Shown: piece by piece, positions 5,209-30,471 of the stretch
Layout: the number at the start of each line of letters is the position of its first letter
Numbering within the stretch: the stretch's first letter is position 1
Assembly (NCBI GenBank): GCA_024228495.1
Contig: JAAETJ010000633.1
Coordinates: forward strand, 1-35,779
Length of the DNA stretch: 35,779 nt
Reading direction: 5' to 3'
DNA from: a bacterium
GTDB taxonomy: Bacteria > Pseudomonadota > Alphaproteobacteria > Rhizobiales > JAKIUO01
Notes under the pieces: model-generated
What the model was told of the DNA's origin: nothing
The model's input: the letters and a program-made list of their open reading frames with translations, nothing else
The model's database searches: none
Translations under genes and position numbers: made by a program

Positions 5209-5438
5209 TCAGTTTGATGCAGCCTGATTGCGAATAATATTGCTGATATTTTTCACGGATATGGGCGTGTATTTCACCGGTTTCGCGATGTAGTTTTTAT
5301 CGAGATAATCCGTCAGCTCGGCTTGCGCGTGATCTGCTCCAGCTCTTCACACTGTTCCTGCTCTGGAAAGTTCTCGCGAACCATGTAGCCAGAAGAATCA
5401 ATCCAGTAGCCTGCGTCGATCGATTTGTCGGGGGCTCA
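5209..5438 (-). pseudogene. Decayed gene fragment, family not recognised
   Basis: Two adjacent minus-strand reading frames give protein-like sequence. One reads DAGYWIDSSGYMVRENFPEQ and ends at a stop; the other, overlapping its end, reads AELTDYLDKNYIAKPVKYTP and ends with RNQAASN at a TGA (5209-5211). Joining them needs one frameshift near 5330. Codon use and the continuity of the frames suggest a short coding sequence that was broken, but I do not recognise the family and there is no good start codon or ribosome site. It lies between psiE and the terminator of the next gene. Confidence 0.35.
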
Positions 5439-5473
5439 TGGAAGCGGCGTATATTTTTATAACGAAGGCAATA

Positions 5474-5509
5474 AAAAGCCGGTGAGACATCAAGGTTTCA
5501 CCGGCTTTT
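5474..5509 (-). terminator. Rho-independent terminator of the basic-protein gene
   Basis: AAAAGCCGGTGA (5474-5485) and TCACCGGCTTTT (5498-5509) form a perfect 12-bp stem. Read on the minus strand, the second arm runs into TTTTTATT, the expected U-tract, 27 bases after the stop codon of the gene at 5536-6234. Confidence 0.85.
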
Positions 5510-5535: not shown

Positions 5536-6234
5536 CTATTTGGATAGTCGACCTTGTGGACCAACGAATGAAAATCCAAATTTCTTGCGACGAGGTTTGT
5601 GGGAAACGTTTTTCTTCCTGATCGACTTTTTCTTGCTCTTGCGAGCTATCCGATAACTCCCTTTGCTTCGACGTTTAAGGCGTGCCAGACGCTTCCTTTT
5701 GCGGGCTTTCCTGGCAGCTCTGCGGGCCTTCAGTTCCTGACGTTTGAGTTTCGCTCGTTTGTATTTGCCATTTTTTGAAGCCAGCATGCGGGGATTATAG
5801 CCGCGAGCTTGCTTTGGCTCATCGACAATTCCCGGCGCATCAATCTCATCTTGCTGATCTTGCGAGCGAGTGCGAACCGGCACTGTCAGAGCAGTGTTTT
5901 TGCGTTTATTGCCAAACACGTTCCAGTCTAGTGGCTTTCTGGCCGGATCTTTGAAACGCTTTGCCTTGCCTGTTGCAAATGATTTGTTTTCAGGTGTCGA
6001 TACTGCAGCTGGTGTAATGACGCGAGCTGGCGTTTGCGCGATTGCCACAGCACCTGGCTGCATCTCCGCGGGTTTATCAACGCTCGCGGAAGTGTTAACC
6101 TGACGACCATACTTAAGCTGGACTACCTTGCCTTGACTACCCGATTTGGAGGTTTCCTCCGAAAAAGGGTTCCCGGTAAGGTAGAAAAATCCACTCATCA
6201 AAAGAAAAATATAAATTGGATAGCGCATAAGCAT
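5536..6234 (-). CDS. Exported(?) protein with a strongly basic C-terminal tail, unknown family
   Basis: A 232-residue protein. Residues 1-20 (MLMRYPIYIFLLMSGFFYLT) look like a signal peptide or membrane anchor; there is no lipobox cysteine. Residues 25-150 are polar and low in complexity, rich in Ala, Pro, Thr and Ser. Residues 154-219 contain 36 Lys or Arg in 66 positions (for example LKRQELKARRAARKARKRKR), similar in character to histone-like or nucleic-acid-binding tails, followed by a short FGFSFVGPQGRLSK end. It is a single-gene unit with its own terminator. I do not recognise a family. An exported polycation could bind anionic envelope polymers, but this is inference; a cytoplasmic DNA- or RNA-binding role is excluded only if the N-terminus really is a signal. 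Confidence 0.7.
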   Translation of the reverse strand: MLMRYPIYIFLLMSGFFYLTGNPFSEETSKSGSQGKVVQLKYGRQVNTSASVDKPAEMQPGAVAIAQTPARVITPAAVSTPENKSFATGKAKRFKDPARKPLDWNVFGNKRKNTALTVPVRTRSQDQQDEIDAPGIVDEPKQARGYNPRMLASKNGKYKRAKLKRQELKARRAARKARKRKRLARLKRRSKGSYRIARKSKKKSIRKKNVSHKPRRKKFGFSFVGPQGRLSK

Positions 6235-6541
6235 TTACCTACCTGTAACAACACTTGAAAGCATCGATTTATAGTTTAAAATCACGATTTAGAAGAGCGA
6301 TGAGTCTGAAACTCAGTATAAGTTCTTTCTAACTCATCCAACGCTTCTCTGACACATATAAGCCATTTTTAGACAAGCGAAAAGTGTAATTAGCATATAT
6401 TTAATGTTTGCGCACTGCGACATTTGATGCAAATGGGTGGGATATCATCCCTTGTTGATCGCGCCAAAATAGAAAAAATATTGATAGATCAGAGAGTTGA
6501 GGTCCGCATTAGGAGACCTTTGGTCCCTAAATCGCTGGTAG
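6235..6541. other. Intergenic stretch, no supported gene
   Basis: AT-rich spacer between the start of the basic-protein gene and the end of the ymdB-like gene. It should hold the promoter of the former (minus strand), but I could not pick -35/-10 boxes with confidence. Small palindromes such as GGGATATCATCCC (6439-6451) are present without T-runs. Confidence 0.6.
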
Positions 6542-7357
6542 TTAAAAATCAGGTTCCATTTGACGAATGTCGGGTCCAAGGCGCAAAGGACAGATATTTT
6601 TTGCCAAACCCGTTCCATCATCAATGTGAATAACCACGCCGCTGATCGCCGCCTTACCGATCACTGGTGCAAACCTGCCACCATTAACGCGCGTCACAAA
6701 GCGATTCACCGGCTCATCTTTTTCCATGCCCAAAACGCTGTCATAGACGCCGCACATTCCGGCATCCGACATATAGGCCGTTCCCTGCGGCAAGATACGG
6801 TCATCAGCCGTTGGCACATGAGTATGAGTACCGATCACCGCGCTGACCTTGCCATCAAGAAAATATCCCATCGCCTGCTTTTCCGATGATGCCTCGGCAT
6901 GCATATCGACAAACGCAATATCGGCACCGGCTCCCATAGGACATGCCTCTAATTCGCGTGAGATCCTTTGAAACGGGCAATCCAGTTCTTGCATGAAGAC
7001 CCGCCCCATCAAATTGACCACAAGCACCTGCGCGCCGTTTTGCGCGGTGAACAACCCGGTTCCCTTTCCCGGCGTCCCCTCTGGATAATTGGCTGGGCGC
7101 AACAAGCGATCTTCTCGCCCAATATGTGAAAGCGTCTCGCGCTGGTCAAATGCGTGATTACCGGTGGTGATGACATCGGCGCCCGCATCGAAAAATTCGT
7201 TCGCGATCTTTTCATTTATGCCAAAGCCACCGGCTGCATTTTCTCCATTGACGATCACGAAATCGAGCTTGTAGCGCTCGAGCAAAATCGGTAATTGGGA
7301 AACAACCGCCACCCGGCCCGAACGACCGACCACATCTCCAAGAAATAAAAGGCGCAA
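6542..7357 (-). CDS. YmdB/TIGR00282-type metallophosphoesterase
   Basis: A 271-residue cytosolic protein of the calcineurin-like phosphoesterase family related to Bacillus YmdB, whose members hydrolyse 2',3'- or 3',5'-cyclic nucleotides. Metal ligands are all visible: D8 (GDVVGRSGR), E39/N40 (NGENAAGG), N67/H68 (TGNHAFDQ), H153 (MHAEASSEK), H178 and H180 (GTHTHVPTADD). The length is normal. The physiological substrate in alphaproteobacteria is unknown. It lies 15 bases downstream of the cyclo-ligase gene on the same strand, so the two are almost certainly one transcript; this pairing is common in Hyphomicrobiales. Confidence 0.92.
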   Translation of the reverse strand: MRLLFLGDVVGRSGRVAVVSQLPILLERYKLDFVIVNGENAAGGFGINEKIANEFFDAGADVITTGNHAFDQRETLSHIGREDRLLRPANYPEGTPGKGTGLFTAQNGAQVLVVNLMGRVFMQELDCPFQRISRELEACPMGAGADIAFVDMHAEASSEKQAMGYFLDGKVSAVIGTHTHVPTADDRILPQGTAYMSDAGMCGVYDSVLGMEKDEPVNRFVTRVNGGRFAPVIGKAAISGVVIHIDDGTGLAKNICPLRLGPDIRQMEPDF

Positions 7358-13700: not shown

Positions 13701-16700
13701 TCATTTCTTGCGGACTAGTTTCTTGCGCACAAAATCGGCGATGCCCACATAATCAACCTTGCCCGTGCCCATCAATGGCAGTTCCTTGATTTTGAGGATC
13801 ATGCGCGGAATCATGATTTCAGCGATACCGGCTTTCTTGCCAGAGACGAGCAATTCGCTGCGATCTGGTTCTTCATGTTCGGTCACCAGCACCAGACGCT
13901 CACCCTTTTTTTCGTCCGGCACAGCAACAACAGCGTGCGAAAGGTCCGGCCAGGTGGTGTTGACATGAGCCTCCACCGCGGTTAGCGAAATCATTTCCCC
14001 GGCGATTTTGGCAAAGCGCTTGACGCGCCCGATGATCTCCACAAATCCATCATCATCAATCGAGACAATATCGCCAGTGTCATACCAGCCATCCTCAACG
14101 GGCTGCAATATGCCGGGTTGATCAGCCATGATATATCCAAGCATCACATTTGGTCCTTTGACGACCAGGCGCCCGCCCTCCTTGATACCCGGCACCGGCT
14201 CCAATTTATGCTCAATGGAGGGCATCAAACGTCCAACGGATCCGGCCTTGCAATGCATAGCCGTGTTGACAGCCAGCACTGGAGCGGTCTCGGTGGCCCC
14301 ATAACCTTCAAAGATGCGAATGCCGAATTTATCAGACCAGATGCGGCGTGTTTCTTTCTTGACTTTTTCAGCTCCGGCAATGACATATCGGATCGAATAA
14401 AAATCATATGGATGCGCCATACGGGCATAGCCGCTTAAAAACGTATCGGTGCCAAACAGGATCGTCGCATCGGTCTCATAGACCATCACGGGTACGATCT
14501 TGTAATGCAGGGGCGAGGGATAAAGAAACACTTTGACGCCGCCAAGCAAGGGCAGTAAAAACGCCCCGGACAGGCCAAAACTATGAAACAGGGGCAAGGC
14601 ATTAAAGACCGTATCTTCTGCATTGAGATCAATACGGGCGCTAACTTGCAAGCGGTTAGCCTGCAAATTGGTATGGCTGAGAACAACCCCTTTTGGCACG
14701 CCTTCAGAGCCAGATGTAAACAAAACAACCGCCGCGTCATCTGGCGCGGGCTCACCACTCTGCCTTCGATACGCTAACCGTGGCATCAGCTTTTTAACGA
14801 CACCCGACAGCTTGGCAAACATGTCGATTTCCGCTTTGATATCTTCAAGATAAACAATATCGACAATATCCTTGATGCCCTCAATAATGGGCTCCAGTTC
14901 CCCGACCTCGATGAAGCGCCGGGACGTCAAAATCGTATTGAGCTTTGCCGTGCAACAGGCCGAGCGCAGGTTTTTGAGGCCCGTGGAATAGTTGAGATGG
15001 GCAGGTACGCGTCCGTAGGCCTGTAAGGCAAAAAACGTCACGCCCATGCCATTGGTGTTAGGCAAGAACACCCCGACCCGCTCGCCCCGTTCGGTGCGTT
15101 TGGCAATCCGTCCGCCAAGTACAAAAGATGCCAGCACAATACGATCAAAACTCAAAGGAGCGCGCTCCACATCTTCAAGAATAAGGGTCTTGCGGCCGTG
15201 CTGGGAGCGTGCATCAAGCAGGGCATCAAACAAGGTGCGCTTGTAAGGGCCCGTTTCAAACACCATTGAGGTCATGACATCATATAGCTTGTTGCCAACC
15301 ACTTCGCGGCGCCGCGAAGTGGTGAGGCCCTTTGGTGCCTCCAGCTTTTGCGGTGGCATGATGGTAATGGTGATCTTGGGAAACCATTTGGTTTTGACCC
15401 GCGATCCAAGTTTTGAAAATTTTGAATATTGCGCCCCATCAATGCGTACCGGCAAAATGGGCGCATCAGCATGCAGGGCAATACTGCCCGGTCCCTCATA
15501 GACCTTCATCAAGGCCCCGGTCACAGTAATCCGCCCTTCGGGAAAAATGACGATATGCTGGCCGCTTTCGACGGTGCGCACCAGTGTTTTGATGGCAATG
15601 GGGTTGCTTGGGTCAAGGGGCAGGAAATCAAAGAACGGAAAGGCGATGCGCGCCCACCATTTTTCGGCGATCTGAGTGTTGATGGCAAAGCTTGGATTGC
15701 CCGGCCAAAACGAAGCGAGGATCGGTCCATCCAGGAAAGACACATGATTGGCAACAATCACCGCCTTGCCCCCTGCCTTGCTAATATTTTTCGCCCCCTT
15801 TATTTCCACGCGATACAGCAATCTGAAAATCTGACGACCAAGACCTTTAACGACCTCTTCAGGTAACAGCTTGCAAATATAGGCGGCCACAAATCCGTTC
15901 AACACACCAATCGTCAAAAATAGTTGAGGGACGGTATACCCAGCGCTTAGCATAAATCCTGCAAGCACCGTAGAGACCACCATGAACATAGCGTTGACTA
16001 TATTGTTGGCAGCGATGTTGCGTGACACATGGTTTGGGTCGGAACTTTCTTGAATAAGCGCGTAAAGCGGCACCGCATAAAGCCCGCCACTAGAAGCGAT
16101 CATGAACAGATCAAACAGGACACGCCAATTCAATGGTGTGCTCAAAAAAACTCCGATATCAACGAGGCTTCCAGCTCCAGCTCCAGGTACTGGAACGGCA
16201 TTGCGGCTGGCAAAATATAAATCCACGGAAAAAATCGTGATGGCTAGCGCAGCCAGCGGCACATATTTGGCCGAAACCACCCCTTTTAGCAATTTATTAC
16301 AAGCAAGTGACCCAAGAGCGATGCCAATGGTGAAAATGGCGATAAACAAGGTGGCCACCATCTCATCGGCATGCAGGGCATTTTTGGAAAACGTGGGAAA
16401 TTGCGCCAGATACAGCGCCCCCACCAGCCAAAACCACGAGATACCAAGGATTGACAAAAACACGGTGCTATTACTACCAGCATGTTTGATGATGCGAACA
16501 GTTTCCGAAAACAGATTATAGTTGACGCGCAGCTCGGGATTTTGAGCTGGTATCGCCGGGATTTTACCGGCCGCAACGTATCCAAACACCGCCAGAACTA
16601 TCAACGACACAGTGACGATCATCGGCCCCATCTGCTGGGTGATCAGCAAGCCCCCATACATGGTGCCGAGCAAAATCGCCAGAAAGGTGCCGGTTTCAAT

Positions 16701-17147
16701 CAGTGCATTGCCACCAATCAGTTCGTCTTTTTCCAGCAGTTGCGGCAATATCCCGTATTTTAACGGCCCGAAAAAACTCGACTGCGTTCCCATCAGGAAC
16801 AAAACAAAAAGCAAAAACTCGATATCTTGCAAATAGAAACCAACCGCCGCCAGACCCATCAAAATGATCTCGACAAACTTGATACGCCTGATCAGCATAG
16901 CCTTGTCATATTTATCAGCCAGCTGCCCGGCTGTTGCCGAGAACAAAAAAAACGGCAGGATAAAAATCCCTGCCGCTATGGTGATAATCAGGCGGGCATC
17001 ATAGCCAGCATTGTTTGCAAGGCCGTAAGTAACAAGAATTACCAGCCCTTGTTTGAAGCCATTATCATTAAACGCCCCCAGTGCCTGCGTAATAAAGAGC
17101 GGGAAAAAACGCTTCAAACGAAGCAGATGAAACTGGGAGTGGGCCAT
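13701..17147 (-). CDS. aas: LplT / acyltransferase / acyl-ACP synthetase fusion (Aas type)
   Basis: A 1148-residue, three-part inner-membrane protein. Residues about 1-425 form an MFS transporter like LplT (ITQALGAFNDNGFKQGLVIL, then about 12 hydrophobic segments). Residues about 435-640 form a PlsC/LPLAT acyltransferase with the HX4D motif NHVSFLD (H468, D473) and FPEGR (535-539). Residues about 645-1148 form an AMP-binding acyl-ACP/CoA synthetase, with LFTSGSEGVPKGVVLSH around 809-825. Together these flip lysophospholipid inward, activate a fatty acid and re-acylate it, a phospholipid repair cycle split between LplT and Aas in E. coli. The open frame extends upstream to a TTG at 17198, but MAHSQFHLLRLKRFFPLF starting at 17147 (ATG) looks like the real N-terminus. 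Confidence 0.92.
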   Translation of the reverse strand: MAHSQFHLLRLKRFFPLFITQALGAFNDNGFKQGLVILVTYGLANNAGYDARLIITIAAGIFILPFFLFSATAGQLADKYDKAMLIRRIKFVEIILMGLAAVGFYLQDIEFLLFVLFLMGTQSSFFGPLKYGILPQLLEKDELIGGNALIETGTFLAILLGTMYGGLLITQQMGPMIVTVSLIVLAVFGYVAAGKIPAIPAQNPELRVNYNLFSETVRIIKHAGSNSTVFLSILGISWFWLVGALYLAQFPTFSKNALHADEMVATLFIAIFTIGIALGSLACNKLLKGVVSAKYVPLAALAITIFSVDLYFASRNAVPVPGAGAGSLVDIGVFLSTPLNWRVLFDLFMIASSGGLYAVPLYALIQESSDPNHVSRNIAANNIVNAMFMVVSTVLAGFMLSAGYTVPQLFLTIGVLNGFVAAYICKLLPEEVVKGLGRQIFRLLYRVEIKGAKNISKAGGKAVIVANHVSFLDGPILASFWPGNPSFAINTQIAEKWWARIAFPFFDFLPLDPSNPIAIKTLVRTVESGQHIVIFPEGRITVTGALMKVYEGPGSIALHADAPILPVRIDGAQYSKFSKLGSRVKTKWFPKITITIMPPQKLEAPKGLTTSRRREVVGNKLYDVMTSMVFETGPYKRTLFDALLDARSQHGRKTLILEDVERAPLSFDRIVLASFVLGGRIAKRTERGERVGVFLPNTNGMGVTFFALQAYGRVPAHLNYSTGLKNLRSACCTAKLNTILTSRRFIEVGELEPIIEGIKDIVDIVYLEDIKAEIDMFAKLSGVVKKLMPRLAYRRQSGEPAPDDAAVVLFTSGSEGVPKGVVLSHTNLQANRLQVSARIDLNAEDTVFNALPLFHSFGLSGAFLLPLLGGVKVFLYPSPLHYKIVPVMVYETDATILFGTDTFLSGYARMAHPYDFYSIRYVIAGAEKVKKETRRIWSDKFGIRIFEGYGATETAPVLAVNTAMHCKAGSVGRLMPSIEHKLEPVPGIKEGGRLVVKGPNVMLGYIMADQPGILQPVEDGWYDTGDIVSIDDDGFVEIIGRVKRFAKIAGEMISLTAVEAHVNTTWPDLSHAVVAVPDEKKGERLVLVTEHEEPDRSELLVSGKKAGIAEIMIPRMILKIKELPLMGTGKVDYVGIADFVRKKLVRKK

Positions 17148-17301
17148 AACTGCTGTCGATTTTCTTTCAAAAAGGGGGCTGAAACCGATTATTTTCAAGC
17201 AGATTATCGATTTATCACTGTCAAAGCAAAAGCTATCTTTACGCGCCTTGTCTTCGCGATTCCTTTAGAGTCTGACTCAATACTAAATCCATAAAAATCA
17301 A

Positions 17302-29292: not shown

Positions 29293-30471
29293 CTAAGCCT
29301 GCTCGCTTGAAGCATGTTCGAAGGCCCAGTCGAGCCATGGAAACAAAGCTTCAAGGTTTGAACGCTCGACCGTTGATCCGGCCCAGATGCGCAATCCGGG
29401 AGGAGCATCTTTATAAGCGCCAAGGTCAAATGCTGCGCCTTCTTGTTCTAGCAAGGCCACCATTTTCTTGACGAACAACCATTGATCAGCGCTTTCCATA
29501 GCAGCGATTTTGGCGTCGGTGATTTTGAGGCAAACCGACGTGTTGGAGCGCAGATTTTCATCGACGCACAAAAAATCGATCCAGTCAGTGCGAGCGACCC
29601 AATCGGCAATAGCTGATGTGTTGTCGTCGGCACGTTTGATCATGTTTTGCAGACCGCCAATATCAGCGGCCCATTTAAGGGCATCCAGATAGTCTTCGAG
29701 CGCCAGCATGCCAGGTGTGTTGATGGTAGCACCTTCAAAAATGCCTTTGATCAACTCATTACCGTTTTTGCCAGCTTTGGTGAGGCGGAAGATTTTCGGC
29801 ATTGGCCATGGAGGCGTATAGCTTAAAAGGCGGGCCACAGCACGAGGGCTCAATATGAGCATGCCGTGCGCAGCTTCTCCGCCCAATACTTTTTGCCACG
29901 AGTACGTTGTTACATCGAGCTTGTCCCATGCAAGGTCCTGCGCAAATACGGCAGATGTTGCATCGCAAATCGTCAGGCCCGTGCGGTCCGCGTCGATCCA
30001 TTCACCGTTTGGCACGCGCACACCAGAGGTGGTCCCGTTCCAGGTGAAGATCACATCTCTGGAAAAATCAATCGCATCCAGATCTGGCAGCTCGCCATAG
30101 CCAGCATCTAACGTCCGTGTATCGCTCAGTTTGAGCTGACCTTTTATGTCGCTGGCCCAGCCTTTGCCAAAGCTTTCCCAAAACACGATATCGACGCCGC
30201 GTTCGCCTAAAAGCGACCACATCGCCATTTCAACCGCACCGGTGTCAGAGGCTGGGACAATACCGATGAGATAATCATCGGGAATACCAAGCAGCGAGCG
30301 TGTTTCGTCAATCGCTTGTTTGAGACGGGCTTTGCCCGGCTTGGAGCGATGGGAGCGACCCAGCAGATCTGTATTGAGATTGTTGAGAGACCAATTTGGT
30401 CGTTTTGTGCAAGGACCAGAAGAAAAACGCGGATTATCCGGCCGCGCTGCCGGTTTCGTGACCTCAGTCAT
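29293..30471 (-). CDS. serC: Phosphoserine aminotransferase
   Basis: A 392-residue PLP-dependent cytosolic enzyme (fold type I) for the second step of serine synthesis, also used in pyridoxal phosphate synthesis. [15 protein letters not shown] near the start, [14 protein letters not shown] and [10 protein letters not shown] in the middle, and the PLP lysine in [15 protein letters not shown] identify the alphaproteobacterial long-form SerC. It is the first gene of the serC-serA operon, with a structured leader upstream (30498-30538). Confidence 0.95.

Follow-up and report, generated by a model that had tools for sequence, protein, structure and literature searches.

Bitopic periplasmic proteins with disordered arms are already known. 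Here, we describe a candidate variant of this design, in which the arm would end in a bare polycation and which has a domain-bearing twin. The protein, whose family we call A1, is encoded on the minus strand of the 35.8-kb contig G000:C632; all 35,779 nucleotides of this stretch are referred to as the window. A search of titles and abstract beginnings, in itself weak evidence of absence, found no protein of this kind (a bare polycation on an arm, with a domain-bearing twin). The A1 protein is uncharacterised rather than revolutionary.

Like TolA and TonB, the A1 protein has a predicted N-in signal anchor and a long, presumably periplasmic arm. Unlike them, it has a strongly positive net charge, has been found in one genus only, and is modelled in its C-terminal part as a long helix with an unstructured rest; no TolA/TonB domain was matched in Pfam or NCBIfam at an E value of ≤0.001. 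With FtsN and other SPOR-type proteins, it appears to share a signal anchor, a disordered periplasmic linker, and peptidoglycan as the likely ligand, but no SPOR domain was found (Pfam; E ≤ 0.001 for the window protein and E ≤ 1 for the other four orthologues). The linker of one orthologue (G003, residues 28 to 113) matched the FtsN model PRK10927 with an E value of 0.0099 and 15.4 of 525 bits, far below the cut-off, and this match is probably compositional.

A K/R-rich tail that looks low in complexity is also found in the histone H1-like bacterial proteins (Hc1/Hc2 and AlgP type), and an earlier note on this DNA had called the A1 tail histone-like. This label did not hold. Unlike those proteins, A1 has a putative signal anchor, no visible AKKA- or KPAA-type repeats, and a conserved, specific core and C-terminal peptide, and no histone-like or nucleoid family was matched in Pfam or NCBIfam at E ≤ 0.001. 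In view of the missing family match and the conserved anchor, a histone or nucleoid protein was rejected; the signal anchor predicted in all five orthologues also speaks against DNA binding in the cytoplasm. Indeed, Pfam and NCBIfam gave no match of any kind to the A1 protein (E ≤ 0.001), nor did the PHROGs (E ≤ 0.1). A phage or mobile origin was rejected as well, based on the PHROG result and on 20 pattern matches in viral contigs, none of which was a relative. Solved structures gave no convincing match (best E, 0.21). Furthermore, no peptidoglycan (PG)-binding domain (PG_binding_1/2) was matched in Pfam, either in the window protein at E ≤ 0.001 or in the other four orthologues at E ≤ 1.

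The A1 gene has its own terminator

The minus-strand open reading frame (ORF) at positions 5536 to 6234 encodes 232 amino acids (aa) if counted from its first ATG. In the orthologue comparison, this ATG is replaced by ATA in G001, G002, and G004, and the second ATG (ATG-CGC-TAT, encoding MRY) is retained together with the ribosome-binding site AGGTGGG. Therefore, we prefer the second ATG as the start codon (Table 1). AGGTGGG or AGGTAGG is found at the equivalent position in four of the five orthologues and is displaced in G003. The A1 ORF is a real gene, and across five species pairs its substitutions are mainly synonymous, residues 196 to 213 excepted, for which one pair reached a ratio of 1.06.

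The strong terminator that the earlier note had ascribed to this gene was borne out. The hairpin lies 26 nucleotides (nt) beyond the stop codon and is followed by TTTTTATT. The folding energy of the 71-base terminator stretch is −19.8 kcal/mol (z, −4.7), which was equaled by none of 200 shuffles. The hairpin is present 3′ of the gene in all five orthologues, and the T-run in four of them. A simple terminator scan, which permits loops of 3 to 8 nt, omitted the window's hairpin, whose uninterrupted stem closes a loop of 12 nt. The gap of 313 bases between the end of ymdB and the gene start at 6228 suggests that A1 has its own transcript. One promoter-like site was detected between 5000 and 6700, on the opposite strand; 2.3 are expected by chance.

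Between psiE and the A1 gene, the minus strand of the window (5215 to 5408) contains an apparent degraded coding stretch, whose two frames read YWIDSSGYMVRENFPEQEQCEELEQITRK and DYLDKNYIAKPVKYTPISVKNISNIIRNQAAS. Either a pseudogene or a fault of the assembly could underlie it.

Table 1. Features of the A1 locus, with positions in the window, and the related f2 loci
Feature	Position	Strand	Basis or remark
Coding sequence of the 230-aa A1 protein	5536..6228	-	Second ATG as start; stop codon included
Ribosome-binding-site-like AGGTAGG	6238..6244	-	9 nt ahead of the ATG at 6228
Terminator hairpin and T-run of the A1 gene	5466..5509	-	Folding energy, orthologue comparison
Putative N-terminal signal anchor, residues 1-22 (MRYPIYIFLLMSGFFYLTGNPF)	6163..6228	-	Common to the paralogue; 11-sequence alignment, model
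Motif KPLDWNVFGNKRKN, residues 98-111, within the otherwise disordered linker	5896..5937	-	Alignment, pN/pS
Predicted polycationic helix, residues 153-195, core RKRLARLKRRSKGSYRIA	5644..5772	-	Orthologue alignment, structure model, column identity
C-terminal peptide FGFSFVGPQGRLSK, residues 217-230, FGFxxxGxxxxL	5539..5580	-	Motif common to the paralogue
YmdB-like metallophosphoesterase, upstream neighbor	6542..7357	-	Same direction as the A1 gene; Pfam/NCBIfam
f2 cutA-nadK loci			L062, L063, L067, L072, L075, L077

A1 is so far confined to one genus

A single-sequence search gave matches in 5 of 61 genomes, the window genome included, all of one genus. With an A1 profile, the same five genomes were found among 397 genomes of the order (E, 6e-81 to 4e-135), and the orthologues are 40 to 70% identical to the window protein. 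Another 34 of the 397 genomes matched the profile in part only (E ≤ 1; best E, 0.004). Among 385 genomes of the class (the window genome and some others of the same order included), four others had weak partial matches (best E, 3.3e-4). The best of these, in G671, is confined to the signal peptide and its surroundings in a protein of 505 aa that looks unrelated and that we read from its sequence, rather than from a family search, as a porin. In both profile searches, at most six candidate stretches were scored in genomes with many, and the draws overlap, so that distant relatives may escape. In the genomes searched, family A1 thus appears so far confined to one genus.

A scan of named genomes retrieved four full relatives, namely three Alphaproteobacteria metagenome-assembled genomes (MAGs) labeled "Dive100" and one Hyphomicrobiales MAG, and one contig-end fragment. 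A sample of the name Dive100 is described in a paper on the Southwest Indian Ridge, where it was taken at a diffuse hydrothermal vent (PMC9769843). To judge from the name alone, the Dive100 MAGs probably come from this sample.

The gene for a YmdB-like protein adjoins A1 in four of the five genomes, in G004 across two contigs with an overlap of 481 bases (99.4%). G001, G002, and G004 have the arrangement ymdB > gene > < smc (smc was checked by Pfam in G001 and G004 and read from the translation in G002), the window genome has ymdB > gene > psiE, and in G003 the A1 gene is flanked by an SH3 protein gene and folD. We also scanned by a simple positional rule 30 ymdB loci (of 60 genomes with ymdB), up to 1,500 bases on each side. 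The gene was present in all three other loci of the genus, and nothing was found in 26 loci of other families or beside the separate ymdB of G003.

A conserved polycationic tail and a motif in the linker

Residues 151 to 216 contain 20 K and 16 R, and the count of 36 K/R in 66 residues given by the earlier note is exact; only one residue is acidic. The runner-up 66-residue stretch, among the 72 window ORFs of at least 90 aa called by our own ORF finder, contains 20 K/R. The binomial chance of 36 K/R in 66 is 5e-18 for a background of 11% K/R, which was derived from the window frames of at least 250 residues, shadow frames counted in.

The family A1 structure model, based on five sequences, has a mean pLDDT of 56.6, with helices at residues 4 to 18 and 153 to 194 and low confidence in the remainder. 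In the long predicted helix, block pLDDT values were 88, 91, and 74 over residues 161 to 190. Fifteen of the 24 columns at 172 to 195 are identical in all five orthologues, and another 3 columns differ by K/R exchanges only. In the five orthologues, most of the basic core as far as YRIA is invariant, and so is the FGF close to the C terminus. Judged by this alignment, the tail is more than composition: it combines a strongly conserved core with a specific end peptide, FGFxxxGxxxxL.

Of the ten species pairs that are possible, five entered the selection analysis, all drawn from G000, G001, G002, and G004 with G003 left out; the pN/pS values are uncorrected proportions, with synonymous sites partly saturated. 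They were 0.09 to 0.19 for residues 1 to 25, 0.38 to 0.61 for linker residues 26 to 92, 0.13 to 0.26 for the W-motif region (93 to 112), 0.31 to 0.58 for residues 113 to 150, 0.20 to 0.49 for the basic helix (151 to 195), 0.28 to 1.06 for residues 196 to 213, and 0.28 to 0.57 for the last 17 residues. By these ratios, the basic tail is under constraint. In the W motif, K98, D101, W102, V104 to N107, and R109 are invariant in all five orthologues (consensus DW[TN]VFGNxR), and so is LKY at positions 38 to 40.

A paralogue shares both ends with A1

Weak cross-matches of the A1 profile revealed a paralogue, A2 (349 to 357 aa), which is present in all five genomes with six sequences; G002, whose MAG is 6% contaminated, has two copies. 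Conversely, the A2 profile gives weak matches to A1 from G003 (E, 4e-5), G004 (3e-4), and G002 (0.007). The N termini of A1 and A2 were aligned by hhalign over 24 columns with an E value of 2.1e-7, and none of 20,000 column permutations was as good (all 11 rows). The C termini were not aligned by hhalign. With the last 14 residues in register, 2 of 20,000 permutations were as good (nine rows, four from one family and five from the other; G003 was omitted because its two rows differ by one residue in length), and in a tail alignment of 11 sequences R, A, FGF, and L are invariant. We conclude from these alignments that A1 and A2 are homologous at both ends, the N-terminal anchor and the C-terminal tail.

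Common to the two proteins are the anchor FFYxTGxP, a long linker, a basic C-terminal helix with R[IV]A[KR], and FGFxxxGxxxxL. In contrast to A2 and to the f2 proteins described below, A1 has no PG-binding-like domain and no cysteines and contains the W motif instead. Moreover, A1 is located beside ymdB in four of five genomes and not beside cutA, unlike its paralogue.

Sub-threshold matches to PG_binding_1 (E, 0.0002 to 0.09) were obtained for 9 of 12 proteins of a wider set, comprising 2 of 4 paralogue sequences and 7 of 8 sequences from other families. All PG_binding matches of the paralogue kin are below the curated cut-off, and the three proteins without a match include the paralogue of the window genome itself. 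A Foldseek search with the paralogue returned seven matches, all weak and none at E ≤ 0.001; the highest probabilities were those of SltB3 (0.51) and of the SleB N-terminal domain (0.44; target TM-score, 0.60), both of which are structures that we take to contain PG-binding domains. The paralogue profile had no sequence match in the PDB at E ≤ 1, and the paralogue model is poor (mean pLDDT, 52.9) but shows helices in the middle as well as a long one toward the C terminus, at 301 to 341. Two cysteines are invariant in all six paralogue sequences, a pair that would suit a periplasmic disulphide. The middle of A2 is probably a diverged PG-binding-like domain, and the paralogue probably binds the cell wall.

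The PG-binding protein RgsD of Sinorhizobium was considered as a counterpart of the paralogue and not adopted, since its published description reports no conserved domain and a structural similarity of a different kind (PMC7327166).

A search of the five genomes with tail and anchor profiles yielded no convincing third paralogue, and the remaining matches were weak (best E, 0.048). Two contig-end fragments were seen. G004:C90 overlaps the main G004 contig (481 bases, 99.4%), and G002:C244 carries a second tail beside smc, with a flank 85.7% identical to G002:C142. The latter is perhaps from another strain in the 6%-contaminated MAG.

The N terminus resembles an uncleaved signal anchor

The earlier note had named homologues without the N-terminal hydrophobic segment as evidence against its reading and had suggested a search for homologues that keep signal and tail. 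The hydrophobic residues 4 to 18 are present in all five orthologues, that of the window included, and both ends are kept together in the five genomes of the genus. In the 11-sequence set (these five orthologues and the six paralogue sequences), the N-terminal segment is retained throughout, with M1, R2, F8, L10, F15, Y16, T18, G19, and P21 invariant; the consensus of the five orthologues is MRYPxYxFxLxxGxFYLTGxP. The segment is short and rich in aromatic residues (best 19-residue Kyte-Doolittle value, 0.97 to 1.51), and its helix was modelled at modest confidence (block pLDDT, 68 and 63). The hydrophobic moment of 0.04 to 0.18 is low, which favors a through-membrane helix over an in-plane helix. 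In all 11 sequences, the charge is +1 ahead of the segment and 0 to −3 over the next 15 residues. This pattern predicts an N-in/C-out orientation, which we consider quite probable.

Signal-peptidase cleavage was scored with a matrix, alongside control sequences, and the usual threshold is 3.5. On this scale, the best sites of the five orthologues scored 2.8 to 4.4, close to the uncleaved anchors TolA (4.1) and TonB (2.0) and far below the cleaved controls MalE, OmpA, and PhoA (11 to 17). The window protein just reaches 3.5, and two of the five orthologues are at or above it. At the same place, the paralogue scored 4.2 to 6.0, above 3.5 in all six sequences and above both anchor controls, and one paralogue sequence has a higher-scoring site (6.2) further downstream. 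In summary, these scores suggest that the N terminus has more in common with a signal anchor that stays uncleaved (N-in, C-out) than with a secretion signal that is cut off; a cleaved form is conceivable as well, most of all in the paralogue. The hydrophobic N terminus of the earlier note was thus borne out, but these scores lend little support to its label "secreted-looking".

A1 may bind an anionic envelope polymer

We propose that A1 is a bitopic inner-membrane protein with a periplasmic polycationic helix that binds an anionic polymer of the envelope, and we give this reading as a whole an even chance of being correct. Residues 1 to 22, uncleaved, would anchor the protein in the inner membrane with the N terminus in the cytoplasm. 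The following approximately 130, mostly disordered residues would form a flexible periplasmic arm with one docking-like motif, [LI]DW[TN]VFGN. At the far end of the arm, a helix of about 42 residues, in which nearly all charges are positive, would be followed by the FGFxxxGxxxxL peptide. The helix would grip peptidoglycan carboxylates or lipid A/LPS phosphates electrostatically, and the end peptide would dock on a partner, so that the protein would tether or space envelope layers. The paralogue would act likewise, with its additional PG-binding-like domain.

The gene, its conservation, the shared ends, the charge, and the hydrophobic segment are shown by the sequence itself; the helix, the disorder, and the topology are predicted, and we infer that the two motifs dock and that the protein tethers. 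Since A1 itself is without a PG-binding domain, we infer the ligand from charge and kinship alone; peptidoglycan and lipid A/LPS are the most likely candidates, but nucleic acids are bound just as readily by basic helices. An alphaproteobacterium, being Gram-negative, is unlikely to offer teichoic acids. The earlier note's idea of a polycation directed to the envelope agrees with the N-terminal segment and the charge pattern, both found in 11 of 11 sequences, and with the PG-binding-like middle of the paralogue, as suggested by its sub-threshold matches. If our reading is right, a wall-binding domain has apparently been replaced by charge, and the paralogue that keeps the domain offers a built-in comparison.

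An N-out/C-in insertion would instead place the basic tail in the cytoplasm, where it would link the inner membrane to DNA, RNA, or ribosomes in the manner of the basic tails of some YidC/Oxa1 proteins. Such a role would be in keeping with K/R-rich helices being typical nucleic-acid and ribosome binders, and the sole matches among solved structures, non-significant at E 0.21, were two chains named KLLA0D06941p. The gene is convergent beside smc in three of five genomes, but G000 and G003 have other downstream genes. The positive-inside pattern, present in 11 of 11 sequences, favors N-in/C-out, and the PG-binding-like middle of the paralogue with its two cysteines fits the periplasm. We regard a cytoplasmic tail as unlikely.

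If the segment were a signal peptide cleaved between [LV]TG and [NK]P, A1 would be soluble, in the periplasm or exported, and its polycation would coat LPS, peptidoglycan, or extracellular DNA, which comes close to the earlier note's version. The T-G-[NK]-P sequence occurs in all 11 sequences and just meets the −3,−1 rule, but it is equally explicable as a helix stop, and the modelled helix ends at residue 18. The above-described scores speak for cleavage where they reach the threshold, in two of five orthologues and all six paralogue sequences, and against it in that the orthologues stay near TolA and TonB. In our view, a soluble polycation is rather improbable. A1, which lacks the PG-binding-like middle, could also be a decoy or regulator that competes with the paralogue for the same membrane and end-peptide partners and binds no polymer of its own. 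In favor of this, both ends are common, the middle differs, and no convincing third member was found in the five genomes, but the strongly conserved polycationic core would not be needed by a mere competitor, and we regard a decoy or regulator as very unlikely.

The proposed bitopic polymer binder could be extended to a family of two-ended envelope struts with an exchangeable middle. The shared anchor and end peptide would be two fixed docking sites, joined by a PG-binding-like domain in one protein and by the bare polycationic helix with the W motif in the other. This extension is a long shot. If true, A1 would be a purely electrostatic periplasmic binder of the wall or LPS, and the envelope would be held without a folded binding domain.

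The cutA-nadK locus of the paralogue and wider relatives

In the window genome, the paralogue adjoins cutA and nadK. Its opposite flank holds, in divergent orientation, an ORF that Pfam left unmatched as well as genes for a caspase-domain and a CHASE2 protein. The caspase-domain protein (Peptidase_C14) divergent to the paralogue was noted at L040 (G000:C281, 4635 to 6944 and 7127 to 8000), and L042 to L045 have similar ORFs; Peptidase_C14 was checked by Pfam in L040 only and read from the translation in L042 to L045, and the CHASE2 protein belongs to L040. The 288-aa ORF in between in L040, for which Pfam gave no match, reads like a FecR-type protein.

With the paralogue profile, 71 of 297 genomes gave a match (E ≤ 0.01). 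The genus accounts for five of these, and most of the listed matches outside it cover the PG-binding-like part. In 6 of 25 wider loci, cutA and nadK are neighbors (within approximately 1,500 bases), and all six belong to family f2 of the same order (Table 1). Their proteins are PG-binding-like, each with an N-terminal hydrophobic segment. A related aromatic end peptide is present in four of the six (NLMLSLGGVY twice, NLMQSLGGIY, and NMLQAMGGIF) and is a possible docking signal. The G003 orthologue of A1 ends with MSLGGF, which by eye resembles MLSLGGVY of the f2 proteins. No name or function was found for the f2 cutA-nadK proteins, which adds a group of apparently membrane-anchored, PG-binding-like proteins without a described function; f2 may include cultivable species.

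Two further genes on the minus strand of the window were noted. A 392-aa ORF without a Pfam match (29293 to 30471) adjoins a 3-phosphoglycerate dehydrogenase-like gene. Positions 13701 to 17198 encode a 1165-aa protein with MFS transporter, acyltransferase, and AMP-binding domains, a fusion that presumably resembles the fused LplT-Aas lysophospholipid recycling system.
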